Source: Cephaloticoccus sp. (GTDB lineage: Bacteria > Verrucomicrobiota > Verrucomicrobiia > Opitutales > Opitutaceae). From it: a stretch of DNA of 64,000 nucleotides. Shown here one piece after another: positions 1-16,241 of this stretch. Position numbers and translations under genes: made by a program. The stretch covers positions 62,001-126,000 of the forward strand of contig JAURHD010000004.1 of NCBI GenBank assembly GCA_030833445.1. Reading direction: 5' to 3'. Position 1 is the stretch's first letter; the number at the start of each line of letters is the position of its first letter. Below the pieces are notes generated by a model, which did not search any database, was not told where the DNA came from, and was given only the letters and a program-made list of their open reading frames with translations.

Positions 1-1807
1 CATCGGAATCGAGCTGTTTGCGGCCCTTCGCCATCGTCTCTTCGTCAACCTTCACACCGGCAATCGCCAGCGCGGCCTCGGTGCGCGCGTCACCCGCGCC
101 GCCGTTGCCCACGATCACGGCGACGATTTTGCCGTCGCGATCGATCACAAATTGTGAAGGGATGCCGCGCACGCCGTAGAGCTTGGACGAGGCACGGTCG
201 GCGAAGGTCGCGGAGCCGCGTTCGTTCGGATCGAAAGCCCAGACTATATCGGGATACTTCGGCTGGTTCTTCGGAATCCATGCCTTGAACTTCGCAATGG
301 TGTCGCTCGTGCCCGAGGCCAGCACCACGACATCCTGATCTGCGTATTTCTTCGAAATCTCCTGCGTGTGCGGAAACGAAGCGATGCACGGACCGCACCA
401 CGTCGCCCAGAAGTCGAGGATCACTATCTTGCCCTTGAAGTCGGCGAGCTTCAGCTCGCGGCCCGTCACGTCGTTCATCACAAAGTCCGGCGCCATTTCA
501 CCGGCAGTGAGGGTTTCGCGCGGTTCGCCAGCAGAGGGGTCTTTGGGCGCGGGCTTGATCATGGCCGCGGCTTTCGCCCCGCGGGACGCCATCACCTGCT
601 GCACGACATTTTTAACCGCCTCTAGGTGTTCCTCAGTCGGCTTCACCTTTGCAGCGATGATACCCATGAGGGCGATCGCCTCGGCGCGCGCGCCGAAGCC
701 AATCGTGCCGGTGATCATCTTGCCGTCGGCGTCCGCGACAAATGACGCCGGGAACATGCCGATACCGAAATGCGTGTTGGCGACGCCTTCACCCCAAGCC
801 TTGCCGGCAGGATCCCATGCCACGGTGAAACCAGGCGACGGGTTCGCCGCGACCCATCTGTCGAAATCCGCGCGCTCGGTCGCGGCAAAGATTACCAGCG
901 TCTGCAGGCCTTGGTCCTTGTATATCGAGGCCACATTGCCCACCCAAGCCTGCGGGCCATTGCCTGTGGCGAAATGAACGAAAGTCGGCTTCCCCACGAA
1001 CGGTGCAAACGTGACGGGCTGTCCGTCAATGCCGGTCAGGGTGAAGTCGGGCACGGCCGCGCGGCGGGCGACGCTGCCAAATTTTTCCGGCGGGAAAGCG
1101 TCGCTTGGTGCGCCACCGCTCATCGCCATCATGCCGGCCGCCGGACGCAGCGCCGCGGTCTTGCCCATCGCCGGGATGGACTTGGGCGCGTTAGGATCCT
1201 TCTTTGGCTCCGGCGGAATCGAGGCGAGATCAACCTTCACTCCGATGCGGGCCAAGGCGTATTCGAGGCGGTAGTCTTCACCCGGTCCGCCACCGGTGAC
1301 GATCTCGGCCACTTTGCCGTCACGATCGATGACGAACATCGTCGGGAAACCCGTGACCGTGTAACCGGTATTGAAGACTGATTCCTTCCAGCCTTCGCGA
1401 CCGGCAGGATCGAAGGCCATCGTGAATGCATATTTCGAGGCATTGCGCTTGATCCAGCCGTCATAGGCTTGGCGCGTGTCTGAGGCAGTGATGCCGAGCA
1501 GCACCACGTCCTGATCACGGTATTTTCTAAAAATCCGATCGTTGTTCGGCATCGCCGCCTGACAGGGACCGCACCATGTCGCGGAAACATCCACGATCAC
1601 GACCTTGCCTCTAAAATCGGATAGCTTGATCGACTCGCCCTGCGGACCGACCACACTGAACTCGGGTGCGATATCGCCGGATTTAAGCCGGGTGCCGGCG
1701 GCAGCGGACGGCGCGTCCACAGAGGTCGGTTGGGCCTGGCCCAAATCAACCGACAACAGGGCGACGGCAAGCCCGGCAATAAACCGGAAAGCATGGGGTA
1801 TGTTCAT
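1..1807 (-). CDS. Triple thioredoxin-domain TlpA/redoxin-family exported protein (3' end beyond window)
   Basis: The frame starts at ATG 1807 and stays open to the left edge, giving at least 602 residues. Residues 1-22 form a signal peptide, so the protein should be periplasmic or envelope-facing. Three redoxin domains follow. Domain 1 has TWCGPC (W at 1576-1574). The middle domain, around 1000-880, has GNGPQA where CxxC is expected, so it lacks redox cysteines. Domain 3 has FWATWCGPC (F at 412). The TlpA/ResA family reduces or isomerises thiols outside the cytoplasm. The third domain closely resembles the C-terminal domain of the protein at 9036-10262 (shared CGPCIAS, KYPDI, LYGV.GIP, QFVIDR), so the two are paralogues. 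It is divergent from cysteine synthase and DsbD. No clear Shine-Dalgarno precedes the start. The fold call is firm; the substrate is unknown. Confidence 0.85.
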   Translation of the reverse strand, partial: MNIPHAFRFIAGLAVALLSVDLGQAQPTSVDAPSAAAGTRLKSGDIAPEFSVVGPQGESIKLSDFRGKVVIVDVSATWCGPCQAAMPNNDRIFRKYRDQDVVLLGITASDTRQAYDGWIKRNASKYAFTMAFDPAGREGWKESVFNTGYTVTGFPTMFVIDRDGKVAEIVTGGGPGEDYRLEYALARIGVKVDLASIPPEPKKDPNAPKSIPAMGKTAALRPAAGMMAMSGGAPSDAFPPEKFGSVARRAAVPDFTLTGIDGQPVTFAPFVGKPTFVHFATGNGPQAWVGNVASIYKDQGLQTLVIFAATERADFDRWVAANPSPGFTVAWDPAGKAWGEGVANTHFGIGMFPASFVADADGKMITGTIGFGARAEAIALMGIIAAKVKPTEEHLEAVKNVVQQVMASRGAKAAAMIKPAPKDPSAGEPRETLTAGEMAPDFVMNDVTGRELKLADFKGKIVILDFWATWCGPCIASFPHTQEISKKYADQDVVVLASGTSDTIAKFKAWIPKNQPKYPDIVWAFDPNERGSATFADRASSKLYGVRGIPSQFVIDRDGKIVAVIVGNGGAGDARTEAALAIAGVKVDEETMAKGRKQLDSD

Positions 1808-1991
1808 AAAAGTAGTTTTACTGAGCAATGAGTTCGGTCCGTGTGTCTCGCAAGGTAACACGCGGTTCCTCTCCATTCATAGGACAACGGTAACAAACCT
1901 AACCACACGTTCGCCGGCGGCCAATCTTTCCGCTGATTTTGCTCCTTTCGGACTATGGCTTACCGCCTCGCGGACCGCTAGAGTCCTCCCC

Positions 1992-2975
1992 ATGCAAACC
2001 CTGTCCCGTCCTGTTGCCAATTCCATCGGTCCGCGCCGCCAGTCCCGGCCGGCGATGCCGCCCATGCTCCGGCTCATCGGGCGAACGCCACTCGTGCCGC
2101 TGTATTTCCGGCCAGAAAACCTCACGGTTCACGTCAAGGTCGAGTTCACCAACCCCAGCGGCTCTATTAAGGACCGGCTCGCGCTCCATTTACTGACCAA
2201 CGCCCGACAAAAAGGCCTGTTGCGACCCGATTCCGTCATCCTCGAGTGCAGCAGCGGCAACACCGGCATCTCGCTCGCCATGGTCGGCGCCGCGCTGGGC
2301 CACCGCGTCAAAATCCTCATGTCCGACACCGCCAGTGTCGAACGCCGCCACCTCATCACCCACTTCGGGGCTGAACTGCACCTGTTCAAAACCACCCGCG
2401 GCTACGTCACCGGGATCGAACTCGCCGAAAAAATGGCCGCCGAGGATCCGCGCTTCTTCCTCACACGGCAGTTTGCCAATCCCCTCAATGCCCAAGATCA
2501 CGAGTTGCACACCGGGCGAGAGATCCTTGCGCAAACCCGCGGCCGAGTGGATGCATTTGTCAGCGGCTACGGCACAGGCGGCACGCTCCAAGGCGTCTCG
2601 CTGGCCCTGCGTGCTGCCAACCCCGATGTGCAGATCGTCGCCATGGAACCAGCCGAAGCCGCAATGCTTTCGGGTGAAGCGCCTTGCTGCCACAGCATTG
2701 AGGGCGTGGCCGGCGGCTTTGTGCCGCCACTGCTGGACGGGGTGAAGATCGACGCCCACGAACCGATCCGCAGCGCGGATGCCATCGCCATGGCCTGGCG
2801 TTTGGCGCGTGAATTCGGCCTTTGCGTCGGCCCATCGTCCGGAGCCAATGTGATGGCGGCGCTCCGCACCGCCGCCCGGCTTCCTCGCGGCGCCAAAGTC
2901 GTCACCATCCTCTGCGACCGAGCTGACCGTTATTATTCCACCCGGCTCTTCAGTCAGGCTAGCCCCAGCGTTTGA
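1992..2975 (+). CDS. Cysteine synthase family PLP enzyme (CysK/CysM-like)
   Basis: This 327-residue beta-family PLP enzyme would make cysteine from an activated serine (O-acetylserine or O-phosphoserine) and sulfide in the cytoplasm. The PLP lysine is K60 in NPSGSIKDR. The substrate loop SSGNTG is at 87-92; most relatives have TSGNTG. The phosphate-binding GTGGT is at 194-198. Length fits the family (300-330 residues). The frame is open well upstream, but ATG 1992 gives the normal family N-terminus (a short lead before LIGRTPLVPL), so I chose it. The gene ends 47 bp before dsbD on the same strand and is divergent from the triple-thioredoxin gene, which suggests a shared thiol or sulfur role. 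Sequence alone does not separate CysK from CysM or a phosphoserine sulfhydrylase. Confidence 0.85.
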   Translation: MQTLSRPVANSIGPRRQSRPAMPPMLRLIGRTPLVPLYFRPENLTVHVKVEFTNPSGSIKDRLALHLLTNARQKGLLRPDSVILECSSGNTGISLAMVGAALGHRVKILMSDTASVERRHLITHFGAELHLFKTTRGYVTGIELAEKMAAEDPRFFLTRQFANPLNAQDHELHTGREILAQTRGRVDAFVSGYGTGGTLQGVSLALRAANPDVQIVAMEPAEAAMLSGEAPCCHSIEGVAGGFVPPLLDGVKIDAHEPIRSADAIAMAWRLAREFGLCVGPSSGANVMAALRTAARLPRGAKVVTILCDRADRYYSTRLFSQASPSV

Positions 2976-3022
2976 AAGTAGCGCCAACCCGTGGCATCTC
3001 TAATTCCATCTCTCACCACCTG

Positions 3023-5134
3023 ATGAAATCGTTTCGTTTTCTCGCCCTGCTGCTGACCTTGGTCACCGCCAACGCCGCCTCGCTTTCTGCGCAAGTGAAA
3101 GCCTCATTGGTTGCCGCCGACCAGTCTATCCAAGCCGGCAAACCATTCACCGTCGCCCTCCGACTCCAGCACGATCCGCACTGGCACACCTATTGGATCA
3201 ACCCCGGCACTGGGCTCGCGACCGAAATCGCCTGGACCCTGCCGGAAGGATTCAAGGCCGGTGACATCCAATGGCCAGTGCCCAAGGTCCTACGCGACCC
3301 CACCGGCACCGTCATCGGCAACGGTTACGAGAACGACCTACTGCTGCCGGTCACCATCACGCCGCCCGACGATCTCAAGTCCGGCACTGTCTTCACGCTC
3401 AAAGCCCGGGCCGACTGGCTCATGTGCGAGGACGTCTGCATCCCCGGCGGCGAGGAATTGGAGCTGACCCTGCCCGTTTATGCGGAAGAACCCGCCGTCA
3501 ACGGCGAGCTGGGACAACGGATCAACGCCGTCGTCGCCGAACTGCCGGACATGCCCGATGAGTGGACCGCCACGGCCAGCCGTGCGGACAAAACCATCAC
3601 GCTCTACGTGCAACCGCATCAAATTGATCATACCCCGGGCAACCTGCACTTTTTCGCGGATGACGATCTGGTCGGCTACGATTTGCCGCAAACCGTCACC
3701 GCCAACGCCGACGACAGCTTCACCCTCACGTTGCAGGTCTCAGCCTACGGTCCGGAGGACGCCACGCGCTTGGTCGGCTTGCTGAAGTCCGACAACGGAT
3801 GGATGCCCGATGGCTCGCTGCCCGCGCTGCGCATTGATGTGCCGTTCACCGCTCCAACTGAGGTTGCGGCTGCCGGCACGACCACCACGGACGCAGCGCC
3901 GCCGGCCACGCTCGGATTGGGCACGCTGGCGCTCGCGTTGCTCGGCGGACTCATCCTTAACCTCATGCCCTGCGTCTTCCCGGTGCTCGGCATCAAGATT
4001 CTCGGCTTCGTCAACCAAAGCGGCAGCGACAAGCGCAAGATCGTGCTGCACGGCGTCATGTTTACGCTTGGCGTGCTGGTTTCGTTCTGGGCCTTGGCCG
4101 GCGTGCTGCTCGCCTTGCGGGCCGGCGGCGCCCAGCTCGGCTGGGGCTTCCAATTGCAATCGCCCGGCTTTGTCTTCGGCATGGCGGTCTTTTTCCTGAT
4201 CTTCGGCCTCAATCTGAGCGGCCTGTTTGAAGTCGGCCTCTCCGCCACTGGAGCCGGCGCCACGTTGCAAACGCGTGACGGCTACACCGGTTCGTTTTTT
4301 ACCGGCCTGTTGGCGACCCTCGTCGCCACGCCGTGCAGCGCGCCGTTCCTCGCCACCGCGCTGCCCGCCGCGCTCGCCCTGCCCACTGCCTCGGCGTTGG
4401 TCGTGTTCACCTTCATCGCGCTGGGCCTCTCCGCCCCGTATCTGCTGCTCTCCCTTTTCCCGCAGGCGATCAAAGTCCTGCCGCGACCAGGCGCGTGGAT
4501 GGAAACCTTCAAGCAGTTTATGGCGTTTCCGCTCTACGCAACGACAGGCTGGCTGCTTTGGGTGCTCGCTGCACAGACCGCCGGTCAGGAAACCGCCCTG
4601 CGCAACATCCTCTTCGGTCTCGTGCTCGTAGCCATGGCCGCGTGGATCTACGGTCGCATGGGCCAGGCCCACGGCAAACCCGGCAAGCAGCGCGCCGGCG
4701 TGCTGCTTGCGTTGATCCTCGCGGCCGGCGGCACGTGGTTCGGCTGGCCGAAATCGGCCGAGGCCGCCCAAGCCGCGGCGGCGGCCAGCAACGCAGTAGT
4801 CTGGGAGAAATGGAGCCCCGAGGCCGTGGCCAAGGCGCAGGCCGAGGGTCGCACGATCTATGTCGATTTCACCGCGCGCTGGTGCTTCACCTGCCAGACG
4901 AACAAGGCCGCCGTCTTTGCTTCCGACGAAGTGCTCAACGAATTCGCCGAGCGGAACATTCTCGCCCTCAAGGCCGACTGGACCAGCAAGGATCCGCAGA
5001 TCACCGCCGAGCTCGCCAAGTGGAACCGCAGCGCCGTGCCATTCAACCTGCTCTATCGCGCGGGGGAACCCACACCGATAATTCTGCCAGAAATCCTCAC
5101 CCCCGGCATCGTCCTCGACGCGCTGCGGCAGTAA
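3023..5134 (+). CDS. dsbD: Thiol:disulfide interchange protein DsbD/ScsB family
   Basis: This 703-residue protein carries electrons from cytoplasmic thioredoxin across the inner membrane to periplasmic thiol proteins. A signal peptide (about 1-22) is followed by the N-terminal periplasmic domain, with cysteines C135 and C139 in CEDVCIPGG. The polytopic membrane core begins near residue 298. Its paired cysteines are C317 (LMPCVFP) and C438 (TPCSAPF). The C-terminal thioredoxin domain has RWCFTC (C621, C624). All six expected cysteines are present. ATG 3023 is preferred over an upstream in-frame start because it opens directly on MKSFRFLALL, a normal signal sequence. It lies just downstream of cysteine synthase and would supply reductant to the exported thioredoxin proteins encoded nearby. 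Confidence 0.92.
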   Translation: MKSFRFLALLLTLVTANAASLSAQVKASLVAADQSIQAGKPFTVALRLQHDPHWHTYWINPGTGLATEIAWTLPEGFKAGDIQWPVPKVLRDPTGTVIGNGYENDLLLPVTITPPDDLKSGTVFTLKARADWLMCEDVCIPGGEELELTLPVYAEEPAVNGELGQRINAVVAELPDMPDEWTATASRADKTITLYVQPHQIDHTPGNLHFFADDDLVGYDLPQTVTANADDSFTLTLQVSAYGPEDATRLVGLLKSDNGWMPDGSLPALRIDVPFTAPTEVAAAGTTTTDAAPPATLGLGTLALALLGGLILNLMPCVFPVLGIKILGFVNQSGSDKRKIVLHGVMFTLGVLVSFWALAGVLLALRAGGAQLGWGFQLQSPGFVFGMAVFFLIFGLNLSGLFEVGLSATGAGATLQTRDGYTGSFFTGLLATLVATPCSAPFLATALPAALALPTASALVVFTFIALGLSAPYLLLSLFPQAIKVLPRPGAWMETFKQFMAFPLYATTGWLLWVLAAQTAGQETALRNILFGLVLVAMAAWIYGRMGQAHGKPGKQRAGVLLALILAAGGTWFGWPKSAEAAQAAAAASNAVVWEKWSPEAVAKAQAEGRTIYVDFTARWCFTCQTNKAAVFASDEVLNEFAERNILALKADWTSKDPQITAELAKWNRSAVPFNLLYRAGEPTPIILPEILTPGIVLDALRQ

Positions 5135-5163
5135 ATGGATATCAATTGATTCAATCTGACCTC

Positions 5164-5237
5164 ACGCAAAGGCGCGGAGACGCAGAGTTCACTTCGCATG
5201 CCGGAAAATGGAATCCGGCCCTGCGTCTCTGCGTGAG
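5164..5237. repeat. Nested inverted repeat of the GGAGACGCAGAG intergenic family
   Basis: The left arm (5164-5187, ending GGAGACGCAGAG) is repeated inverted at 5221-5237 (CTGCGTCTCTGCGTGAG). The loop holds a second hairpin, GCCGGA/TCCGGC. The core resembles repeats at 24460-24484 and 33611-33675. It lies between the convergent dsbD and M16 genes. Confidence 0.6.
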
Positions 5238-5244
5238 ATAAATC

Positions 5245-5264
5245 ACCGTCCCTTGAAGGACGGT
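5245..5264. terminator. Possible bidirectional terminator hairpin
   Basis: A perfect 7-bp stem, ACCGTCC/GGACGGT with a 6-nt loop, abuts the stop codon of the minus-strand M16 gene and lies downstream of dsbD. The T-tracts on both sides are weak, so terminator function is only suggested. Confidence 0.35.
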
Positions 5265-8063
5265 TTACTTCGCCTTCGGCACAATCGTCACGGTCGAAAC
5301 GCGATCAGCGCCGAGGAATGCCTTCGCCAGAGCGGTAAGCTCATCCGCGGTCACGGATTCGAGATCAGGAATCCGCGAGCGCGCCCAGTTGAGCACCTCC
5401 GGTTTTTCCTGCGCCCGGGCCAGCACCGAACCGCCCCAATAGCCGTTGGTTCGCAGAGATTCGCGGGCGGAGGTCAGCATCGGCTCGCGGGCCCGGTTGA
5501 GTTCGTCCACCGATACACCGTTCTTCGCGAGGTCGTCGCCGATCTCGACCATCACGGCCAGGATCTTCTCCGCGTCTTCCGGACTGACGATGCATCTGGC
5601 CTGCAAGTAGCCGTAATCGGGGAAGGTATCGCTCGCAAAACTGCCCGCACCGGGGCTGTAGCTACCCGCGATCTCTTCGCGGATTTTCACGCGCAAGCGG
5701 TCGGACAGCACACGGCCGAGCAGACTCAGGCGGCGGTTGGTCTGGATGTCCATTCCGTCCGTCGTCGGCCAATAGGCAATCACGTTGCCCTTAGGAATTT
5801 CCGAAACAAATTCGTAGTGCCGCACAAACGGCTCGTCCGGAAAGCTGACCTGTTTCAAATCGGCCAGATCCTTGCGCTCCGCGCGCGGCGGCAAAGCGCC
5901 AATCGTGGCGGCCGCCGCCTTGATCGCGGCCTCGATGTCGAGATCGCCGACCAAGGAGACTTCAAGAGCTCCGTGAGCAAGCTCAGGCGCCAGCCAGGCC
6001 TCCACTTCGTCCAGCGTGCGCTCCAGCATCACTTCTTTTGCCGGCATGCCAAAGCGTTCGTCACCGTTGGCGAGCAATGGCGCCACTTCGCGGGCCATCG
6101 CGCCGTTGGAAGTGAACTCGAAGCCGAGATACATCTGTTCGATGCCCTTGCGCGCCTGACGCAGCGCTTCCGGCCGCCAGCCGGCGTCGGTGAGCTGCGC
6201 CACGATCAATTCCAATTGCAGCGGCAAATCCTCGGGCGTGGTGCCGCCATTGAACACAAACGCATCGGTATCCATACCGAAGCCCGAGGCCACGTTGCGT
6301 CCGGCCAGCACGCGGCGCAATTCGTCGGCACTGTGTTTGCCCAACCCGCCCGCATAAAACGTGCCCGAGGCGAGCCAGCCGAGGCCGGCCTTGCCCTTCG
6401 GTTGCGTGATGCTGCCGGAGCCCACGCGCACTCCCGTGCTAATGCGTCCGGCTTCGAAATCGGTGCGCTTCAAATTGAGTTTCACGCCGTTGGCGAACGT
6501 CACGAGCTCCACATCGAGATCCTCGACATGCTCGCGCTTGATCACCTTGCCGGGTTCACCCGCGGCAGCGTAACCCCACTCGGCTTCGGCCGGGGTCAAC
6601 AGGGCGTGCACCGCCACCGTGGCGCTCGTGTGGTAAACCGTTTCAATCGCGGCCGCGGCCTCGCCCGGCATCTCGACATTGCCCGTCACCATGACGAAAC
6701 GCCCCGGCGCGTCGAAGGCGGCGCGGAGCGCTGAGAGACATTCTTCCGGCGTAATCTTTTCCAAGGCTGGCACCAGCAGATCGCGATCCGCCTCCGGATG
6801 GGTGAACGCTTCCTGCCGCACAATGCTGTTCGCAATCTGGTTGGCCAGGCCGCCGGAGCGGCGCGTCGAGGCGCGTTTCACAGCTTGCTCCAAGCCGTTG
6901 GTGTAGCCCGCGACTACTTCGCGCAGCTCGGCCTCATGAAACCCGTGCTCCAAGGCCCGGCGTAATTCCTGTTCGCCCACCGCCAGCGCCGCGGCCCACT
7001 GGTCGGCCGTGCAAGTTACCGTGACCTCCGTCTGACGGTAGAGCCGGTATTGGTCGTAGACCGCCGCGTAAGCCTGCGTGAACGGCGCGCCTTCCTTTTT
7101 CGCCAACTCGCTGAAACGGCGGTTCAAAATTTCCAGGGCCAGCGAACGCGGCAGCGATTCGATGCGCTTGGCCGCGCTGTCAGGCTCATTTGGCGCCGGC
7201 GTAATTTGCGTAATGCTGACCATCGTCATCGGTGCTTCCGGCTCGGCATGGAACCACGTCCGCAGACCCTCGAATTCCGGCAGCGTGCCCAGATCGGGAT
7301 CGGCCGGCACCTCGGCGCGCGGCTGCAGGCCGGAGAATTGTTTACGAATCAATTCCTCGACCCGATCCGTCTCGAAATCGCCCACTGCGATGACCACGAT
7401 GTTGTCCGGACGATACCACTCGTTCCAAAACTCGACGAAGCGCTCGCGCGGCGCGTCCCTGATCACTTCTTCAAGGCCGATCGGCAGGCGATGCGGCAGC
7501 AGCGTGTCGCCCAGCATGAACTCGAGCCGGGCCACCAAGGTGCGGAAACCCACGTTGTCGCGCGCTCGCTTCTCATTAAGGATAATGCCGCGTTCGCGGT
7601 CGATCTCTTCGGACAACAGCAGGAGGCCGCCGGCATAGTCGCCGAGCACCTGCAACCCCTCGGCCAGCGTTTCCTCGTCCGTCTTCGGCAACTCGATCAT
7701 GTATTGTGTGCGCTCGAAGCTGGTGAACGCGTTCGTGTCACCGCCGAAGCTCATGCCCATGCGTTGAAAAAATTCGATCAAGGTGCCCGGCGCGTAGTGT
7801 TCGCTGCCGTTGAAGGCCATGTGTTCGAGAAAGTGCGCCACGCCGCGTTGATCCTCGCGCTCCTGAAACGAGCCCGCCTGCACCAGGAGCCGCAGCGATG
7901 CCCGTTCCTGCGGTTCACTGTTCGGATAGATCACGTAGCGGACGCCGTTGTCCAGCTGCCCGAATCGAGCAGCGGGATCGACGGTCGATCCACTGCCCGC
8001 CTGCGCGGGCAACACGGTCACCGCGCCCAATAACAAAACGCCCCAGAATTTTCGCAGGTTCAT
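5265..8063 (-). CDS. M16 family zinc peptidase (PqqL/insulinase-like), exported
   Basis: The protein has 932 residues, about the length of E. coli PqqL, with two M16 halves. A signal peptide covers residues 1-22. The inverted zinc motif HFLEH (H77, E80, H81) is intact in the N-terminal half; the distal glutamate is expected in the helix reading ERGIILNEKRARD. The C-terminal half is the non-catalytic partner typical of this family. M16 enzymes degrade peptides inside a closed chamber formed by the two halves. The neighbour dsbD is convergent, so this looks like a single-gene unit. The substrate is unknown. Confidence 0.9.
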   Translation of the reverse strand: MNLRKFWGVLLLGAVTVLPAQAGSGSTVDPAARFGQLDNGVRYVIYPNSEPQERASLRLLVQAGSFQEREDQRGVAHFLEHMAFNGSEHYAPGTLIEFFQRMGMSFGGDTNAFTSFERTQYMIELPKTDEETLAEGLQVLGDYAGGLLLLSEEIDRERGIILNEKRARDNVGFRTLVARLEFMLGDTLLPHRLPIGLEEVIRDAPRERFVEFWNEWYRPDNIVVIAVGDFETDRVEELIRKQFSGLQPRAEVPADPDLGTLPEFEGLRTWFHAEPEAPMTMVSITQITPAPNEPDSAAKRIESLPRSLALEILNRRFSELAKKEGAPFTQAYAAVYDQYRLYRQTEVTVTCTADQWAAALAVGEQELRRALEHGFHEAELREVVAGYTNGLEQAVKRASTRRSGGLANQIANSIVRQEAFTHPEADRDLLVPALEKITPEECLSALRAAFDAPGRFVMVTGNVEMPGEAAAAIETVYHTSATVAVHALLTPAEAEWGYAAAGEPGKVIKREHVEDLDVELVTFANGVKLNLKRTDFEAGRISTGVRVGSGSITQPKGKAGLGWLASGTFYAGGLGKHSADELRRVLAGRNVASGFGMDTDAFVFNGGTTPEDLPLQLELIVAQLTDAGWRPEALRQARKGIEQMYLGFEFTSNGAMAREVAPLLANGDERFGMPAKEVMLERTLDEVEAWLAPELAHGALEVSLVGDLDIEAAIKAAAATIGALPPRAERKDLADLKQVSFPDEPFVRHYEFVSEIPKGNVIAYWPTTDGMDIQTNRRLSLLGRVLSDRLRVKIREEIAGSYSPGAGSFASDTFPDYGYLQARCIVSPEDAEKILAVMVEIGDDLAKNGVSVDELNRAREPMLTSARESLRTNGYWGGSVLARAQEKPEVLNWARSRIPDLESVTADELTALAKAFLGADRVSTVTIVPKAK

Positions 8064-8148
8064 AGGGCATCATACTGCCTCATGACTCCGACCGGCGCAA
8101 TCACCACCGGTTAATCCATGCGGCCTAAACCGCGCCTGGACAGCCCGC

Positions 8149-8337
8149 TCAGCGGACCAATTCCACGCCACCCGGCACGGCGCGCAGCTTGCGCAGACGG
8201 GCGCGTTCGTGACCGGGCCGGTTCGGCGAGTGGATCAGCAGCAACCGCCGGTCATCGAGGGCACGGAAAGTCATGACGTAACTGCTGTCGGGCAGGGCGA
8301 ACGGCTCGGGCGATTGCATCCACGGCCCCAGAATGCC
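8149..8337 (-). pseudogene. C-terminal remnant of a family 43-like glycoside hydrolase
   Basis: Reading the minus strand to the TGA at 8149-8151 gives about 60 residues with GPW, QSPEPF, FRALDDRRLLL, IHSPN and a final VPGGVELVR. This order (GPW..., the F.D.R/LHSPN strand, then a closing strand) is what I know from the end of GH43 beta-propeller enzymes. There is no start codon or catalytic region. The homology stops near 8337, close to an IS3 relic that begins about 8378. I read it as a gene truncated when the neighbouring DNA arrived. The GH43 assignment is from memory of the family pattern only. Confidence 0.5.
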
Positions 8338-8377
8338 ATCTCAGGCCCTCGGGCCACCCCGATGTAAAATCCACCAC

Positions 8378-8645
8378 GGCCGGGGACAATATCCGTATGT
8401 TGCGGACGACGGTTGGCAGCCAGAGCAGCGTTGAGCTCTGTAAGAGACGAACATATCGGAACAGACGTTCAACTGCTGGGAGCGGCGGTTCGGCATGATT
8501 GAGGTCAACAAGGCGAAGCGCTCAACGTGCTAGACTGCAGGAATACTGAGCTGAAAAGGATGCTCGCAGACTCGTTCCAGACGAACCGCGTGCAGCGGTT
8601 CGTGAACAATAATTATGAGCCCGGGGACACAAGGAGCAGATGGTG
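8378..8645 (+). mobile_element. IS3-family orfA relic, copy 1
   Basis: The stretch aligns with 15365-15640, for example ACAATATCCGTA, TCGGC.TGATTGAG, CGAAGCGCT, AACCGCGTG and AATTATGAG in the same order. One frame reads NTELKRMLADSFQTNRV, which matches the leucine-zipper end of IS3-type OrfA (EN.ELK.M.AD...KN.V). Stops and frameshifts interrupt it; no orfB or terminal repeats are visible. It lies between the truncated glycosidase and the LuxR-type gene. Confidence 0.6.
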
Positions 8646-8682
8646 CAAAACCTGTATTCCACGCAGAGAACGGGCGATCTTA

Positions 8683-8970
8683 TCAGCGCAGAATGGCGAT
8701 CAAGCGGCCCCGGGTGGGCACCCCAAGCTTGGTCAAGATGGACGACACCTGGCTCTTTACCGTGAACTTTGACTTGCCTAGCAGACGGGCGATTTCGGCA
8801 TTACTCAACCCTTGCGCCAGTTGCAGCGCAACCGCCTGCTCCGCAGGCGAAAGCTTTTCCAACAGGGGTGCATTGATCGCCGCTGAGGCAGAGAAATCCC
8901 GCCAACTCATGGTCGGGGCTAACGTCGCTGGAGCCGCAACGGATTTTGATTTAGAACCAAACGACAACAT
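8683..8970 (-). CDS. Small LuxR-type HTH protein
   Basis: The start at 8970 (MLSFGSKSKS) gives 95 residues; an in-frame ATG at 9027 would add 19. The C-terminal 55 residues form a GerE/LuxR helix-turn-helix: LSPAEQAVALQLAQGLSN, EIARLLGKSKFTVKSQVSSI, LTKLGVPTRG. No receiver or autoinducer domain is present, only a short polar N-terminus. It should bind DNA. It ends close to the IS3 relic and begins 65 bp downstream of the stop of the thioredoxin gene on the same strand, so it could be the last gene of the sigma/FecR/TonB locus. Its target is unknown. Confidence 0.7.
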   Translation of the reverse strand: MLSFGSKSKSVAAPATLAPTMSWRDFSASAAINAPLLEKLSPAEQAVALQLAQGLSNAEIARLLGKSKFTVKSQVSSILTKLGVPTRGRLIAILR

Positions 8971-9035
8971 GGAGATGCCTTTGACCGGGCCGGCTGTATG
9001 AAAAGACCGCCCCGGTCCACACAACATAAATGCTA

Positions 9036-10262
9036 CTAGCGTGCCATGCTTTTACGGGCCTCGAGGTCTTTGGCGCCCTTGGCGATCAGAGCCGGATCCA
9101 CTTTGATCCCGGCTTGGGCCAAGGCGGCGTCGAGGATGGCCTCTCCCTTGAGATAGCCGGTGATATGCGCGACGATGCGGCCCTCCCGGTCGATCACAAA
9201 TTGCTGGGGTATGCCACCGACTCCGTAGAGTTTTCGGGCCACACGATCGACCGACTTTTCCAAAGGATCATGGGTGAAGATGATGTCGGGATACTTACTC
9301 TGATTAGCAGCAACCCATTTTTCAAACAGGGCGCGACGGTCACTAGTGCAAGCGGCCAACACCACCACCCCTTGGTCTTGGTATTTTGCTGCCACTTCCT
9401 GTGTGTGGGGCATCGATGCAATACAAGGACCGCACCACGTTGCCCAAAAATCCAGCACCACCACCCGACCCTTGAAGTCCGTCACGCGCACCACGTTGCC
9501 CGCCGCATCAATGCTTTCGAAATCAGGGGCCATGGTGCCAACTGCGCGCAACTCTACCCTCGGCTCCGGTTTGGGCATGGCAGCAGCAATGTCCTCATCC
9601 GACCAAACTTTGGCCGGCTTGTCCTCCGGCATCAGTTTGATGCCGGCACGCAAGAGGAGATTGCCGAGGCCCTCCTTGGTCGGTGAGCTGGCCTTGGTGT
9701 AAAAGCCCAGCAACCGACCCTGAGGATCCATCACGACGTGATGCGGCAGCGGCGCCATCATTCCCCCCGCCAGCTGCATGGGCACGACCCGGGCATAATG
9801 GTCGCGCATCTGCTGCCGAAAAGCCGCTTGTTCCTCATCGTTCATCTCCGCAACCGGTTTGCCGGGGTTGAGCCCGCCGGCGGGGTCAAACAGCACGGGG
9901 AAGGACAGTGCGGCCCCATGCTGTTGGAGCCAGGCCTGATGCTTTTCCCAACTGCCGTAGGCCGCGATGCCAACAAACAACACTCCTTGATCGGCGTATC
10001 TGCGCGCCCAGGCCTCGAGCATGGTCAGGCCTTCATCGGTCATGCCCGCGCCGGCTTTCCAAAAGGACAACACGGCGGTTTTGCCGGCGGTGAGGTCCGA
10101 CAATTGCACGGCAGTGCCGGCGGCATCCAGCAACGTCACCTCCACCAGGGTCTCTCCGATCTTGGTTTTGCCGTAACTGGGCAGGAAGGGCGGGCGGACG
10201 GCTTGATCAGCCGCATGGACGGCCAGGCAGGACAGGAGCAAAACCAAAATGAGTTTTTTCAT
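9036..10262 (-). CDS. Two-domain thioredoxin-like exported protein (TlpA family)
   Basis: The protein has 408 residues with a signal peptide, MKKLILVLLLSCLAVHA. I chose ATG 10262 because the upstream extension contains no signal. The N-terminal redoxin domain has SFWKAGAGM where WCxxC is expected, so it is redox-dead. The C-terminal domain has WATWCGPCIASMPHTQE and the cis-proline region GVGGIPQQFVIDREG. The C-terminal half is a close paralogue of the third domain of the protein at 1-1807. It follows the TonB receptor on the same strand by about 100 bp. The combination of one dead and one active thioredoxin domain recurs in both proteins, which suggests the dead domain binds a partner. Confidence 0.85.
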   Translation of the reverse strand: MKKLILVLLLSCLAVHAADQAVRPPFLPSYGKTKIGETLVEVTLLDAAGTAVQLSDLTAGKTAVLSFWKAGAGMTDEGLTMLEAWARRYADQGVLFVGIAAYGSWEKHQAWLQQHGAALSFPVLFDPAGGLNPGKPVAEMNDEEQAAFRQQMRDHYARVVPMQLAGGMMAPLPHHVVMDPQGRLLGFYTKASSPTKEGLGNLLLRAGIKLMPEDKPAKVWSDEDIAAAMPKPEPRVELRAVGTMAPDFESIDAAGNVVRVTDFKGRVVVLDFWATWCGPCIASMPHTQEVAAKYQDQGVVVLAACTSDRRALFEKWVAANQSKYPDIIFTHDPLEKSVDRVARKLYGVGGIPQQFVIDREGRIVAHITGYLKGEAILDAALAQAGIKVDPALIAKGAKDLEARKSMAR

Positions 10263-10363
10263 AATTTTAAATCGGTAGGTTGATACAAGAAGAGCGGGAT
10301 CACGGCCGGCGCGCAGCACGGCAGCGACCCGGGCGCTCGGTTGGGGCGCGCGTCCCGGTGCCT

Positions 10364-13300
10364 TTAGAACGGAATGCTCAAAGCGAACTCATAGGTGCGG
10401 CCGAGGGGACTGTGCAAAGCGCCGTTGTAACCAAAGATGGTGTCCGAGAACGGCGGCTCTTCATCGAGGACATTACCGATGCCGAGACTGACTTTGGTGC
10501 CCTTGAGATACTCGCGGATCAGGCCTTTTTGGAATTCGTAGCCCAGTCGCGCATCAATCACCATTTGCGAGGGAATGGAGCCCGGGGCGCGCGTGTTGCC
10601 ACCGGTGTTGGTCTCAAAACCGCTTAGATAGTTCACAAACATCGAGGCACTGAAAGGCCCCTTGGACCAAAAGAGTGAACCTGCCACGCGCCACTTGGGC
10701 GGGCTAAGTGTATCACTGATGTCGTCAATGACCGGTTCGCCGGGGCGCACTTCCCGTTCGGATTTGAGGGTGCGGCTCGCATTCAAACCCAGGCGCCAGC
10801 TGCCGAATTCCTGCCAAGGCAGGCGGTATTCAGCGGCAAAATCCAACGAGTGATTGCGCACGCGGCCGAAATTAATCAGCGCCCGGTTGACCTCGGTGAT
10901 ACGCCCCGGCCAGCCGTTGGCAATGTCGGTGGGGTCGGCTGCGGCGCGAATCACGCGGTCGGCAAATGAAGCCTCGTTGTTGACGATCTGCTGCTCGGTG
11001 AGCACCTGGATCACATTCTTCTGCTCCGTGCGGTAATAATTGAACTGCAGGGAAAGCCCTTCGACGGACGGCGGCTCCAACACCAAACCGAGAAACTCGG
11101 TCGATGAGGTCTCAGGCTCAAGGCCGGTGTTGGCGGCCCGGGTCACCCGGACGCCGGGAGTCACGTTGTTGCCCCTCCGGGGGTCACGCAGCGAATTGGT
11201 AGTGAAGGTGCGGCCGACCTCCTGCTGATACTCCGTCAGCGAAGGCGCGCGGTAACCTTCGGAGTAGCTGCCCCGTAGCAGCACCGGACGCGCCGGCGCC
11301 CAGGTGAAGCCCACCTTGGGCACACTGACGCTGCCGGCATCACTACGATCCTCGTAACGTATGGCAAGCTGCAGGTCAAAGCGCTGCAATCCGGCGCGGG
11401 CGTTCGATTGGCCAAACAGGGGCACGGAGAGTTCGGAAAACACCGCTTGCGTCTTGCGACTGCCACCAGTGGTCGTGGTGGTCACCACCGGGGTGAGGGC
11501 CGCGCTCGGCGTGACAGACCGGCCGGAATTTTCCGCGTATTCATACGACAATCCGGCCGCCATTTTCGTCAGGCCGCCGGGCAGGTCGAACAGGCCGCCA
11601 TCGGCGATGAAATCGACATTGGTCTGCTTGGTGATGCCATCGAAGGTGATGTAGCGCGCCATCCGGTCAAAGAGGGCGCTTTGATCCGGGGCGCCTTCCG
11701 CCCGGGCATCCACAAAGGGATTAATGCGCTGGCTCGCATCGGGATTGGCTAACGCTGCGGTTATCAACGCACCGTTGAAGTCACGCGTGACCCGACTAAA
11801 ATCCTGTTTTTGCCAGCCGGCCGAAATATCCCACTGCCAGGTCTCCCCCCACGTCCCCTTCAGGCCAACGAGTAGGTTATTAGCGGTGGTTTCGGTGCTT
11901 TGCACCACGCTGCCGAATTCGTAGGCAATCATGCCCACGAGCACATCCTGACCGAAGGGGTTGTAGGCAGCGGGAACGATACTGGCAAAATTGCCAAAAC
12001 CCGAGGAGGCCGAGGCCGCAAAGATGGGCGGCTGACTGGAAAAGGAGCCCTGGAGATTCGAGTAGCTGTAACGCGTGTAGGCCTCCATCGCATATGGCAA
12101 ACGGTAGCCGAGATTGGCGGTCAGGGCCTTGCGTTCCGAAGGAGGAATCAGGTCCAGAAACTCCGCTGAATTACCGCGGCGGGCGCCAGATGCACTGGCC
12201 AGCGTGGCGGTGCCAGTGGGCGCCACGCCAATGAAACCGGTGGTGTTCGTGGGAGCAGCAGTCAGTCCACCAGGCGCGAGGGCGACGCGCGTGGGATTGC
12301 CGTTGGCGGTGACCCCGTTGAGGTTGCCCGTCCGGGCCTGGAAGGTGGCGGGATAACCATAGTTCAGAAGATAATTGCTGCCGTAGACCGGAGCCCCAGT
12401 CACGGGGTCATAACCTTCAACGATGCCGGTATGGTCCTGTTGTCGGGAAAAGGAACGCTGATCGGCCTTAAGGTCGGCGCGTTTATAGTAGTCGAGCCCC
12501 ACAGTGCCGTGCAGCGGACCGTAATTGAAACCGTGGATCAATGAAAGCGAGCGTTCATGGCCGCCCCCGTCAAAGGCGCCCTTGTAGCGGGCGCTCAGTT
12601 CACTGCCCGACCAGTTTTTCTTGAGCACGATGTTGATCACACCCGCGACGGCATCGGCGCCGTAAAGGGCCGAGGTGCCGTCAGTGACGACTTCGATCCG
12701 CTCAACCATACCCAGCGGAATCGTGTTCAGATCGACGAAGCCCTGCCGGGAATCGGTGCCGGCGTTGCCCACGCTGGACTGGGCCACCCGCCGGCCGTCA
12801 ACCAACACCAGAGTGGAGCCGGCACCCAGGCCGCGCAAGCCTACGCCGGACTGGCCGGTGGCATTCGCGGGGACGGCCGACGCGCCGAGCACAAAGTTGA
12901 AGGGCGGGGTTGTCGTTTCTGTGCGGGAGCCGAACTCGGGATTGAGTTCATTGGGCGTGCTGCCCCGACCCGCCGAGATGCCGGCATAATTCTGCGGCAG
13001 CCGGTTGAGGAAATCCGCCAAGGTAAGGGCCCCGGATGCGCGGATGTATTCGTCGTCGTAGTTCGACATAGGCGCCGGGCCAAAGGCCTCGGTCTGCCGG
13101 ATGCGGGTGCCCAGCACCTCAAGCCGGGCCATGCGAATCGTGCCGTCGGCACCGGCGGCGGCCGGAGTTGACCCATCGCTGACATCAGGTCGGACCGGCA
13201 CCTGCGGCGGATCATTCCGTCGCACCGTAAATGCACCGGTGCGATCATCCTGAACCGCTGAGAGTCCGGTCCCTGCCAGCATCAGGTCGAGCGCTTCACG

Positions 13301-13543
13301 GGCCGTGAACTCGCCTTTGATCGCGTTGGTCTGCACCCCCTTGACCCGCTCAACAGGATAAACGATTTGCTCGCCCGATTGATCGGAAAAGGCCTTGAGG
13401 GTCTGGGCGGCATCCGCCACGGGCAGATCATAGTTCTTTTTGACCGCGGCGGCACAGGCCAGGCCAGCGGACAGCAGACATACAAAGAGGAACCTGAGAA
13501 CAACGGTGGCGGGGGAGGAATACAGACTGCGAGGGTAGGTCAT
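10364..13543 (-). CDS. TonB-dependent outer-membrane receptor with N-terminal STN signalling domain
   Basis: The protein has 1059 residues from ATG 13543; an upstream in-frame start lacks a sensible signal. A signal peptide ends near ACAAAV. Next is a secretin/TonB N-terminal (STN) domain (YDLPVADAAQTLKAFSDQSG ... LDLMLAGTGLSA). The plug follows (LADFLNRLPQNYAG, GVGLRGLGAGSTLVLVDGRR, ERIEVVTDGTSALYGADAVA), then the 22-stranded barrel. The last residues, YEFALSIPF, end in the phenylalanine typical of barrel assembly. A STN domain lets the receptor signal to a FecR-type regulator, and exactly such a gene lies upstream (13642-14688). The ligand cannot be read from the sequence; iron complexes or oligosaccharides are the usual choices. 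Confidence 0.92.
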   Translation of the reverse strand: MTYPRSLYSSPATVVLRFLFVCLLSAGLACAAAVKKNYDLPVADAAQTLKAFSDQSGEQIVYPVERVKGVQTNAIKGEFTAREALDLMLAGTGLSAVQDDRTGAFTVRRNDPPQVPVRPDVSDGSTPAAAGADGTIRMARLEVLGTRIRQTEAFGPAPMSNYDDEYIRASGALTLADFLNRLPQNYAGISAGRGSTPNELNPEFGSRTETTTPPFNFVLGASAVPANATGQSGVGLRGLGAGSTLVLVDGRRVAQSSVGNAGTDSRQGFVDLNTIPLGMVERIEVVTDGTSALYGADAVAGVINIVLKKNWSGSELSARYKGAFDGGGHERSLSLIHGFNYGPLHGTVGLDYYKRADLKADQRSFSRQQDHTGIVEGYDPVTGAPVYGSNYLLNYGYPATFQARTGNLNGVTANGNPTRVALAPGGLTAAPTNTTGFIGVAPTGTATLASASGARRGNSAEFLDLIPPSERKALTANLGYRLPYAMEAYTRYSYSNLQGSFSSQPPIFAASASSGFGNFASIVPAAYNPFGQDVLVGMIAYEFGSVVQSTETTANNLLVGLKGTWGETWQWDISAGWQKQDFSRVTRDFNGALITAALANPDASQRINPFVDARAEGAPDQSALFDRMARYITFDGITKQTNVDFIADGGLFDLPGGLTKMAAGLSYEYAENSGRSVTPSAALTPVVTTTTTGGSRKTQAVFSELSVPLFGQSNARAGLQRFDLQLAIRYEDRSDAGSVSVPKVGFTWAPARPVLLRGSYSEGYRAPSLTEYQQEVGRTFTTNSLRDPRRGNNVTPGVRVTRAANTGLEPETSSTEFLGLVLEPPSVEGLSLQFNYYRTEQKNVIQVLTEQQIVNNEASFADRVIRAAADPTDIANGWPGRITEVNRALINFGRVRNHSLDFAAEYRLPWQEFGSWRLGLNASRTLKSEREVRPGEPVIDDISDTLSPPKWRVAGSLFWSKGPFSASMFVNYLSGFETNTGGNTRAPGSIPSQMVIDARLGYEFQKGLIREYLKGTKVSLGIGNVLDEEPPFSDTIFGYNGALHSPLGRTYEFALSIPF

Positions 13544-13641
13544 GGAGGTGTTGGGTTGTGATGTTCCGACGGTGATGCAGACGAACGGCCTCCGGGTTTC
13601 CATTAGCTAATAATGGAAAAATATCCCGCCTACGGATCGGC

Positions 13642-14688
13642 TCAAAGCGCGGGACGCAGCACCAGTTCCCCCGCCCCGTCTTCGGCCTTGATGCCAAAGC
13701 CGGCCTCCAACAAGCGCACAAATGCGTCTACGTTGTCGGCACGGAAATTGCCCCCGACAAGGACATCTCCGAGCGTCGGATCGCCCAAATGCAATTTGCG
13801 CCGGTTGTAGCGGTTGAAAGCCTTCACCACATCGCGCAGCGGCATGTCGATGAATTCCAGCCTCATGCCCTGCCAGGCTAGGCTGCGTTCGACCTCGGCC
13901 GGCGAAATATCCTGCACCCGCGACTGGTCAGCCGGCCATGGAATCAGGCGGGCAAAACGCACCACGGTGCGTTGACCGGCCTTTAACACCACGGGCTCAG
14001 CAGGGTCGGCGGAATTAGCCGCACCCGGGCGGTCGCCCACCTCAACCACCCCGTGGGTCACCAAAACCGCCACATCCACCCGGCTCAGCGCCACGCTGAA
14101 AGCGGTGCCGATGGCGCGAGCGGTCACGCCTTCGGCCTCCACGTAGAAGGGCCGCGCCGGATCACGGGCAACGGTAAAGAAGGCCTCGCCGCGCAACAAA
14201 ACCACCCGGCGCTCCTGCGCTGAGTAAGCTACCTTGATTTCGGCGCCCTGGTTGAGTTCCACCAGGGAACCGTCATCCAACTCCCGCCGTTCGGGTCCCG
14301 GATGCACAATGGCCTCACGTTGGGGTAGGGCATCCGCCACCACCGGCGCTGGCGAGGCCTCGGGCAGGTAAAGCAACACCAGCCAAAGCGCGGTCAACGC
14401 CGCGACCCCAAGACCGGAAGCCAGCCAATGCCACCGCCGGGCGGAACGGGGCGCCAACAAATCCGGATTTGGAACGCGGCTGTGAGCGGGGCGCCACTGC
14501 TCTAGCCGATCCAGCATGCCCCAGACCTGCTGCTGCCGCCGGATCGCATCCGCATGCCGGGGGTCGGCCCGCAGCCAATCCAAATAGGCATCCTGCTCGG
14601 CCGCATCGAGCCCACGATCCCGACGCGCTAGCCAGGCGGCGGCGGCGGATTGGATTTCTTCGGGCAGGGGTGAGGCAGGCGCGGGCAT
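13642..14688 (-). CDS. FecR-family anti-sigma/transmembrane signal transducer
   Basis: The protein has 348 residues from ATG 14688 (MPAPASPLPEEI). The N-terminal cytoplasmic part (AAWLARRDRGLDAAEQDAY, LRADPRHADAIRR) is the DUF4880-like sigma-binding region. One membrane helix follows (WLASGLGVAALTALWLVLLY). The periplasmic FecR domain has RRELDDGSLVELN, VLLRGEAFFTVARD and AIGTAFSV. The end (LEFIDMPLRDVVKAFNRYN ... FVRLLEAGFGI) is a STN-like module that would contact the receptor. It begins 8 bp after the ECF sigma gene and precedes the STN-TonB receptor, the classic surface-signalling order. Confidence 0.9.
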   Translation of the reverse strand: MPAPASPLPEEIQSAAAAWLARRDRGLDAAEQDAYLDWLRADPRHADAIRRQQQVWGMLDRLEQWRPAHSRVPNPDLLAPRSARRWHWLASGLGVAALTALWLVLLYLPEASPAPVVADALPQREAIVHPGPERRELDDGSLVELNQGAEIKVAYSAQERRVVLLRGEAFFTVARDPARPFYVEAEGVTARAIGTAFSVALSRVDVAVLVTHGVVEVGDRPGAANSADPAEPVVLKAGQRTVVRFARLIPWPADQSRVQDISPAEVERSLAWQGMRLEFIDMPLRDVVKAFNRYNRRKLHLGDPTLGDVLVGGNFRADNVDAFVRLLEAGFGIKAEDGAGELVLRPAL

Positions 14689-14696
14689 GGTTGTAT

Positions 14697-15272
14697 TCAG
14701 GGCAAACCGTATTGGGCAAGAAACGCCGAACAGCGGCGCATACCATTGGCCACCTGCACCTCCACGGTATGTTCCGAGATGCCTAGCTGGGTCGCGATTT
14801 CTTTTTGCGAAAGGCCGTAGATTTTCCGCAAGGTCAGCACCTGACGGCAACGCTGAGGTAGGGATTGAATAGCCTGGGTCAAAATTTCGAGTTCCTGATT
14901 GATGGCAGCTTGATCGGGAGCGCTGCGCTCATTCAGTAGAACGAATGACTCATCGTTTTCCGTTATAGACTCGAAAGTGACGATTCGGCGGCGACGCTGC
15001 TCATCGATGGCCAGATGACGGGCGGTAGTGAAGAGCAAGGCGCGCGGGGAATCGACCGCACCGGTATCATGTAACAGCCAAACCCGGGTCAAAGCCTCTT
15101 GGACAACGTTTTCGGGATCGGCCAAGGCCGGAAACCGGTGCCGCAACCAGGCCAGCAACTCGGCGGCATGCGGTTGCACCTGATCGGCATACCAACGGGC
15201 GGAGTCTGGGTCGGTCGGATTCAATGGCAGGGGGCCGAAAGTCGACCATGCTCTTTGGCCGGCCCGAACCAA
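14697..15272 (-). CDS. ECF-type RNA polymerase sigma-70 factor
   Basis: Region 2 is seen in DPENVVQEALTRVWLLHD and LLFTTARHLAIDEQRRRR. Region 4 is in QSLPQRCRQVLTLRKIYG, LSQKEIATQLGISEHTVEV. Length (up to 191 residues) is typical. The start is uncertain: the longest frame opens with TTG at 15272 and no early ATG exists, so translation may begin at this TTG or at a codon slightly downstream. It is immediately followed by fecR and then the TonB receptor, and is expected to be released by FecR to transcribe the receptor operon. Its upstream side abuts the second IS3 relic. Confidence 0.88.
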   Translation of the reverse strand: MVRAGQRAWSTFGPLPLNPTDPDSARWYADQVQPHAAELLAWLRHRFPALADPENVVQEALTRVWLLHDTGAVDSPRALLFTTARHLAIDEQRRRRIVTFESITENDESFVLLNERSAPDQAAINQELEILTQAIQSLPQRCRQVLTLRKIYGLSQKEIATQLGISEHTVEVQVANGMRRCSAFLAQYGLP

Positions 15273-15364
15273 TGTCGAGCCGTTTTAATGTGACCTCGAA
15301 TTTTTGCGCGGCCTGTGGGGTCAGTTTGGGCCAGAAGAAAGGACCAAGACAATGAAGGCAAAGG

Positions 15365-15640
15365 ACCCACGGCCGAAGACAATATCCGTAACTCCAAGAA
15401 GGCCGTCGGCGATCGGATCATCGTGGCGCTCTGCAAGGAGAGGAACATCTCGGAGCAGATGTTCCTCCGCAGGGGATGGCGATTCGGCGTGATTGAGTCC
15501 TACGGGTCGAAGCGCTATACGAGCTTGAGCGGGAGACTACCGAGCTAAAAAAATGCTCACAGACACGTTGTTGAAGAACCGCGTGATGTGGTTCGTGAGC
15601 AGAAATTATGAGGCCGTGGACACAAGAAGTGGATGGTGGC
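15365..15640 (+). mobile_element. IS3-family orfA relic, copy 2
   Basis: Translation across frames gives VALCKERNISEQMFLR, then ELERETTELKKMLTDTLLKN, RVMWFVSRNYE. This is the HTH (ISEQ.F) and leucine-zipper order of IS3 OrfA, broken by frameshifts and an early stop. It is homologous to and in the same orientation as 8378-8645, and somewhat better preserved. No transposase catalytic ORF remains. Downstream to about 15790 I see no coding signal. Confidence 0.65.
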
Positions 15641-15794
15641 CAGCCAAGTCGAGTTTGGGCAGCGGCTTGAAGCCGAAGCAACGAATAAAGGGATGGGCGC
15701 GAGGACGCATTCGGGTCGATCGGAAGTTGCCTATCCCACATTTTGGAGCCACCGTAAAGCCACCGTAGGCCTATTTTGTAAGACGTTTCATAGG

Positions 15795-15841
15795 TAAAGA
15801 CTGTCATAATTTAACGGGTTCAACTCCCGCCACCTCCACCA
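15795..15841 (+). ncRNA. Fragment matching the 3' end of tmRNA (ssrA); attachment-site-like
   Basis: GGTAAAGACTG (about 15793) followed by the T-arm CGGGTTCAACTCCCG and CCACCTCCACCA ending at 15841 match the closing part of tmRNA as I know it (E. coli has GTAAAGACTG, then CGGGTTCAACTCCCGCC and CTCCACCA). The stretch between these blocks is shortened, and no 5' tRNA-like half, tag frame or pseudoknots occur upstream. It is therefore a displaced 3' piece, not a functional gene. Islands often integrate at this part of ssrA and leave such copies. No integrase is in the window. Confidence 0.6.
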
Positions 15842-15964
15842 TTCTTCGCCCTGACGGGCTACGCATGGCACGCCATTTCCATCCTACGAAGGAAGCTGAA
15901 ACTCATTTCATTTTCCCGACCTAGCGAAGAATGGTGCCCTGCGTAGCTTGCGAGCGTAGCAGGG
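15838..15964. repeat. Inverted repeat joining the tmRNA tail to a GIY-YIG gene
   Basis: ACCATTCTTCGC (15838-15849) is exactly inverted as GCGAAGAATGGT (15924-15935). Directly after, CCCTGC...GCAGGG (about 15937-15964) makes a hairpin containing GCGTAG twice. The left arm begins inside the ACCA end of the tmRNA fragment. The structure sits 26 bp before the GIY-YIG start codon. Confidence 0.6.
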
Positions 15965-15989
15965 CGTGGTCACCGTCCTACCCCGCACC

Positions 15990-16241
15990 ATGCATTACGT
16001 GTATTTACTGCGTAGCGAAGCATTCCCCGACCAAACCTATGTCGGTTACACCCGGGATCTGCAGAATCGCCTCAAGGTTCATAACCAAGGCTGCAGTTCT
16101 CACACTTCCAAATACAGACCGTGGCAACTGGTGACCTATCTCGCGTTCTCAACCAAAATGCAGGCACTCGCGTTTGAAGCATATCTGAAATCTCACTCCG
16201 GCAAGGCTTTCGCATCGAAACGGCTTTGGCCCGAGTTTTAA
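15990..16241 (+). CDS. GIY-YIG domain mini-endonuclease (UPF0213/YhbQ-like)
   Basis: This 83-residue protein is almost entirely a GIY-YIG fold: MHYVYLLRSE (the YVYLL strand), TYVGYTRDLQNRLKVHN (the second Y-x-G strand with the catalytic R), a central lysine/tyrosine stretch, and E170-type glutamate in AFEAYLKS. ATG 15990 begins right at the first strand; an earlier in-frame start is less likely. Such short proteins occur as stand-alone nucleases, often next to tRNA or tmRNA ends. The biological role is not known. Confidence 0.85.
   Translation: MHYVYLLRSEAFPDQTYVGYTRDLQNRLKVHNQGCSSHTSKYRPWQLVTYLAFSTKMQALAFEAYLKSHSGKAFASKRLWPEF

Follow-up and report, generated by a model that had tools for sequence, protein, structure and literature searches.

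Integration at the 3' end of ssrA, the tmRNA gene, is known from VPI-1 of Vibrio cholerae and from the ssrA islands of E. coli, which carry other cargo than the insert described here and have an integrase. Usually, the integrase recombines a short stretch of identity between a circular element and its target gene; in such an event, the element's copy would complete ssrA on one side, and the chromosomal 3' end would be pushed to the far side. Islands in tRNA and tmRNA genes (tDNA islands) are reportedly catalogued by TIGER as well as by Islander. The part of the Islander description drawn on here asks for an intact tRNA or tmRNA gene, a 3' fragment downstream of it in the same orientation, a length of 2-200 kb and an integrase inside (PMC4383910). 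In the part of the Dehalococcoides work drawn on here, ssrA islands lie directly downstream of ssrA, are bounded by a 20-bp repeat of its 3' end and have a CcrB-like serine recombinase module adjoining the left edge; islands without integration genes are discussed there as well, with movement in trans suggested (PMC3146451). Among the papers listed by a literature search, judged by titles and abstract openings, none dealt with ssrA islands in Verrucomicrobia or Opitutaceae.

The window, that is, the whole stretch of 64,000 nucleotides that was analysed, corresponds to bases 62001-126000 of contig C44 in a 2.9-Mb assembly of 72 contigs (genome G000). An earlier note on this DNA had read positions 15795-15841 as the displaced 3' end of a tmRNA, left by an island, and had predicted an intact ssrA to the left, outside the window, with the inserted DNA in between. 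The covariance-model search of the contig proposed there revealed this gene at C44:60789-61144 on the + strand (140 bits over the full Rfam model, tag GNYEEMPLAA), ending 856 bp left of the window start, on the same strand as the fragment and 16.7 kb from it. Comparison of the 3' ends showed that window 15815-15841 (27 bp, +) repeats, without a mismatch, the final 27 bp of the intact gene (C44:61118-61144), comprising the 3' part of the T-arm, the acceptor and CCA; the match covers these 27 bp only, and the 47-bp extent first given to the tmRNA fragment was dropped. At up to 2 mismatches, the 2.9-Mb assembly contains the 27-mer twice in forward and never in reverse orientation, namely as the ssrA end and as the displaced copy, against a chance expectation for a given 27-mer of about 3e-10 (equal base frequencies assumed).

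The insert, measured from the ssrA end to the end of the fragment (C44:77815-77841), spans 16,697 bp (C44:61145-77841). Its G+C content (0.614) gives no foreign sign next to the flanking 10 kb on each side (0.615 and 0.615). Set beside the Islander description, in the part drawn on here, the fragment, the orientation (both +) and the length (16,697 bp) are those of a tDNA island, but the interval is without an integrase and would be rejected by the integrase filter (PMC4383910). The layout and the short 3'-end repeat (27 bp here, 20 bp there) resemble the Dehalococcoides ssrA islands as the same part of that work presents them (PMC3146451), whereas a TlpA-type gene stands at the left edge here, and those recombinases that turned up next to ssrA in this family belong to the tyrosine type. 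The features that define the ends of the insert in the window are as follows.

1..15814, no strand: island portion within the window, preceded by 856 bp (C44:61145-62000) that follow ssrA outside it, to the left
15747..15760, + strand: right-end copy of AGCCACCGTAAAGC, candidate arm-type site (word shared with the left end)
15786..15799, + strand: right-end copy of TTTCATAGGTAAAG, candidate integrase arm-type site (shared word; random-pair control)
15815..15841, + strand: displaced 27-bp ssrA 3' end, very probably the attR core and right edge of the island (identity to C44:61118-61144)
15966..16241, + strand: GIY-YIG gene, chromosomal flank and not part of the island (Pfam GIY-YIG; 72% over 89 aa to G008)

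Upstream of 15815, ssrA and the fragment diverge: in an ungapped comparison, 15795-15814, including GGTAAAGACTG, is unmatched to the genome's own ssrA. Since the two sequences part upstream of the 27-bp match, GGTAAAGACTG is not tmRNA here, and the reading of 15795-15841 as a tmRNA end holds for 15815-15841 (27/27 bp) and fails for the bases before it. Part of 15795-15814 belongs instead to a 14-bp word, TTTCATAGGTAAAG, that is present at either end of the insert (C44:61181-61194, at a distance of 37-50 bp from the intact ssrA, and 77786-77799). A second word of 14 bp, AGCCACCGTAAAGC, is likewise found at both ends (C44:61263-61276 and 77747-77760), with a 10-bp partial copy at 15758-15767. 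Between them, the 200-bp insert ends have three common words of at least 10 bp, the longest being 14 bp; among 1978 random 200-bp pairs from the contig, used as a control, a length of 14 was reached in 2, and two or more such words were found in 4. CATAGGTAAAG and CCACCGTAAAG each have two occurrences in the 76 kb examined on both strands. Both 14-bp words are putative arm-type binding sites of an integrase.

The ssrA loci of eight congeners were compared for an uninterrupted site. G008 has TGCTTCGCCCATTCGGGCTACGCATGGCAC and a GIY-YIG gene immediately after ssrA; here, TTCTTCGCCCTGACGGGCTACGCATGGCAC and a GIY-YIG gene come after the fragment instead. Beyond the GIY-YIG gene, G008 has counterparts of the S9-type hydrolase, NagB-type and SDR genes in the right flank of the window; the GntP and M81 genes of the window were not found at this locus, and UxuA appeared as a 34-aa match only. 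The order of the left-flank BNR-repeat gene, ssrA and the S9-type hydrolase is conserved in G002, where the locus has some 4 kb of other DNA and none of the cargo, and where the GIY-YIG gene was not found. G004 has ssrA and left-flank genes at their expected places; of the GIY-YIG gene, a 50-aa piece was found, 1.5 kb downstream of ssrA. A search of the ssrA loci of G001, G003, G005, G006 and G007 found neither the GIY-YIG gene nor the cargo behind ssrA, and the island proteins gave no match at E 1e-6 to the ssrA loci of the eight congeners. Because the GIY-YIG gene is complete behind ssrA in G008 alone among the eight, the exact uninterrupted junction rests on one genome (1/8 congeners), with supporting synteny in two. 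The stretch at 15842-15965, before the GIY-YIG gene, begins with TTCTTCGCCCTGACGGGCTACG, and related letters follow ssrA in G008 and G036. A match to the fragment and part of 15842-15965 covers the 3' end of a tRNA-Leu gene on C9.

Together, the intact gene, the displaced 27 bp on the same strand, the 16.7 kb between them, the G008 site and the conflicting dsbD phylogeny described below argue for a site-specific insertion. We consider it very likely that the 27-bp copy is the attR core of an old genomic island inserted site-specifically into the ssrA 3' end, and the attachment-site reading of the earlier note is borne out by the intact ssrA, its matching 3' end and the uninterrupted site in G008. 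By its borders and the uninterrupted site, the insert is a decayed island at a tmRNA gene and not an active element, of a kind already well known. Starting from a 27-base hint read by eye, it was in this way possible to fix exact borders for an island which finders that rely on an integrase would miss.

Twelve island ORFs were scanned (60 aa or longer). Pfam families were found for nine; three short remnants without a family were explained via a related ORF on C33. This relative of the transposase relics is a 100-aa ORF with Pfam HTH_Tnp_1, which we take to mark it and the relics as IS3-type OrfA. The first island gene, of TlpA type, lies 200 bp behind ssrA; for the product of 9036..10319, the name TlpA is likewise presumed by us. 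The island contents within the window are as follows.

2..1876, continuing left to C44:61345, - strand: multi-domain TlpA-type thioredoxin-like protein, cargo (L010:1345-3876; Pfam AhpC-TSA, three stretches)
1605..2975, + strand: PLP-dependent enzyme, perhaps a cysteine synthase, cargo (Pfam PALP)
2972..5134, + strand: DsbD-type thiol:disulfide interchange protein, probably an acquired copy, cargo (Pfam DsbD_N, DsbD_TM; groups with G003)
5265..8063, - strand: M16 peptidase, cargo (Pfam Peptidase_M16, Peptidase_M16_C)
8385..8647, + strand: inner transposase relic, second of the same gene (73% DNA identity over 271 bp to the same C33 place)
8683..9027, - strand: LuxR-type helix-turn-helix protein, cargo (Pfam GerE)
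9036..10319, - strand: presumed TlpA-type thioredoxin-like protein, cargo (Pfam AhpC-TSA, Redoxin)
10364..13603, - strand: TonB-dependent receptor with STN domain, cargo (Pfam STN, Plug, TonB_dep_Rec_b-barrel)
13642..14850, - strand: FecR-type regulator, cargo (Pfam FecR)
14697..15272, - strand: ECF-type sigma factor, cargo (Pfam Sigma70_r2 and r4_2)
15291..15638, + strand: transposase OrfA-type relic with broken frames, right end of the island (68.7% DNA identity over 355 bp to C33)

The origin of the cargo was approached through dsbD, the one cargo gene for which a tree was built. A second dsbD and PALP gene lie on C11 of the same genome, syntenic with C43 of G002. In the dsbD tree, the island copy groups with G003 (100/100) and the C11 copy with G001, G002 and G004 (98/98). 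In the ssrA tree (355 columns), G003 groups with G008 (96/94) and, at the next level, with G005 and G007 (98/96), G000 falling outside this clade; G006, labelled as the same genus, is placed with G011 and G009, apart from the other congeners. Because the dsbD tree conflicts with the ssrA tree, the island dsbD is best read as an acquired allele, with a G003-like relative as its source. The TonB half shows no transfer, since the island TonB receptor is closest, among 19 genomes, to those of the sister species G001 (71%) and G002 (68%). In G002, sigma, FecR, TonB and TlpA-type genes adjoin the PALP-dsbD pair; the 19.9-kb stretch around the genome's own C11 pair contains no sigma, FecR, TonB or TlpA-type genes. 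The island is thus possibly a mosaic, made up of one piece that came in and one that was relocated. TonB receptors and TlpA-type proteins recur in the genus at differing places (window 9036-15272, G002:C43, G001:C140, G004:C124 and G006:C7), in some genomes together with a LuxR-type protein, an ECF sigma factor and FecR, and near dsbD and PALP in G002 and G006. As a guess, this recurring set could act in envelope thiol chemistry.

The integrase that the earlier note had suggested near the intact ssrA did not appear: a six-frame PF00589 search found no tyrosine integrase anywhere on C44, the two matches in the genome being on C70 and C3. This genome-wide search covered the tyrosine family alone. 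No relaxase gene was found among the 12 island ORFs scanned. The insertion was presumably made by a tyrosine-family integrase, and the island is probably now fixed, with its integrase and transfer genes lost.

A possible trace of a mobile relative was found in G006. In this genome, a worn ssrA 3' end (L047:2063-2092, 20/21 of the last bases) has its end 124 bp downstream of the intact ssrA, and the island's left end (81/120 positions, 68% over 120 bp) recurs directly after it. After this left end comes a broken gene, two pieces of which match the MobA/MobL relaxase, one above (27.9 bits) and one below (16.3 bits) the cut-off of 26.7. These features suggest that the ancestor was mobilizable and that DNA was inserted at this site more than once. 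Among 252 family genomes, the left end was found in G000 and G006 only; a search of public genome contigs with the left-end pattern returned one stretch, apparently on the G006 contig again, and no intact element, a search of viral contigs returned none, and the first relaxase piece had no match among plasmids. The G006 left end with its broken relaxase gene also fits a variant history, in which the element carried an integrase and a relaxase, recombination later put other genes in place of its lost interior, and most of the present cargo never travelled as cargo. The lack of any recognised mobility gene in the island, the two transposase relics, one inside and one at the right edge, and the position of the sister-species TonB set at other places all point the same way, but the dsbD copy, an allele separate from that on C11 and grouping with G003, implies that at least part of the interior came from outside. 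We regard such refilling as a real possibility, albeit a doubtful one.

It is quite improbable that the island ends still work and are moved in trans by an integrase encoded elsewhere, as was suggested for Dehalococcoides islands without integration genes in the part of that work drawn on here (PMC3146451). At the level of sequence, neither the 27-bp core nor the end words are damaged, and two tyrosine recombinase genes do exist elsewhere in the genome; against this, nothing links the C70 and C3 recombinases to ssrA, and the 19.9-kb stretches around them contain no copy of the core at up to 5 mismatches. With no core copy nearby, these two genes were dropped as shown partners of the island, and they may be housekeeping Xer enzymes.

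The nature of the fragment itself was also weighed. A complete hidden tmRNA was ruled out: ARAGORN and Rfam at gathering scores each returned zero tRNA or tmRNA genes in the window, as the earlier note had expected for the fragment, and under permissive Rfam settings the one tmRNA alignment, which ends at 15841, scored 20.1 bits, below the cut-off of 47. That the fragment is the leftover of a tRNA gene, resembling tmRNA through a common T-arm, is extremely unlikely: T-arm and CCA are indeed common to tRNAs, and seven of the genome's own tRNA genes also scored on the tmRNA model, but ssrA matches 27/27, the next matches in the genome are weaker (89% over 27 bp on C66, in a 3-kb locus where ARAGORN detected no tRNA; 76% over 58 bp at the C9 tRNA-Leu), and the gene at the G008 junction is ssrA itself; a tRNA origin was rejected on the strength of these matches. 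A local duplication or chance likeness without integration, favoured by the missing integrase only, has next to no probability given the expectation of about 3e-10, the cargo lying exactly between the copies and absent at the G008 site, and the same polarity in 9/9 placed same-contig cases of the family.

An element of the same general layout, with an integrase, was found in G027 (locus L050). The 27-bp core occurs there twice on one strand, at ssrA and 5.0 kb further downstream, an arrangement shared with the island; the difference is that a tyrosine integrase gene overlaps the ssrA 3' end and is accompanied by SIR2-like and Rep-like genes (Rep below Pfam cut-offs), and the match to the island left end amounts to 11 bp, at chance level. 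The element (L050:8210-13384) consists of three long ORFs on one strand, for the tyrosine integrase, the SIR2-like and the Rep-like protein, and our guess is a small satellite with a defence gene. At E 1e-20, its integrase has relatives in 21 of 61 family genomes, G000 not being one of them.

Across the family, the 27-mer at up to 2 mismatches is present in 175 of 252 genomes and occurs more than once in 26 (table count). All places were known for 18 of these 26 multi-copy genomes, the copies lying on one contig in nine (G000, G027, G061, G157, G197, G198, G208, G209 and G213) and on different contigs in the other nine. In every one of the nine same-contig cases, Rfam identifies one copy as the 3' end of a tmRNA gene, and the other is on that gene's strand, downstream of it. 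A tyrosine integrase gene stands beside ssrA in three of the nine (G027, G157 and G213), having been sought as relatives of the G027 integrase, so that others were possibly missed. In G209, two displaced copies of the 27 bp end at distances of 0.7 and 7.7 kb downstream of ssrA (L118:4253-11934), apparently tandem insertions. G026, one of the other eight multi-copy genomes, has four ssrA-like 3' ends on the - strand (L048:1035-1061 and 4379-4405; L049:4908-4934 and 7030-7056), 2.1 and 3.3 kb apart on two contigs, each followed by about 100 bp of common sequence with ATAACCCATCG...CGATGGAGTTAT. Neither contig yielded a tmRNA or tRNA gene, which places G026 outside the nine polarity cases; its copies may stem from small ssrA-type inserts arranged in tandem, or from a different repeat using that end.

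A wider scenario, which we offer as speculation and consider unlikely, is that a genus-private lineage of ssrA elements with the conserved 120-bp end shared with G006 can lose its integrase, be moved in trans and carry alleles of a genus-wide sigma-FecR-TonB and thiol-redox set between congeners. In this scenario, the 120-bp end would perhaps serve as attachment site and transfer origin at once, because a MobA/MobL relaxase gene follows it in G006. For the family as a whole, the multiple copies in 26 of 252 genomes and the integration polarity in 9/9 placed same-contig cases point to ssrA as a site of recurrent insertion.
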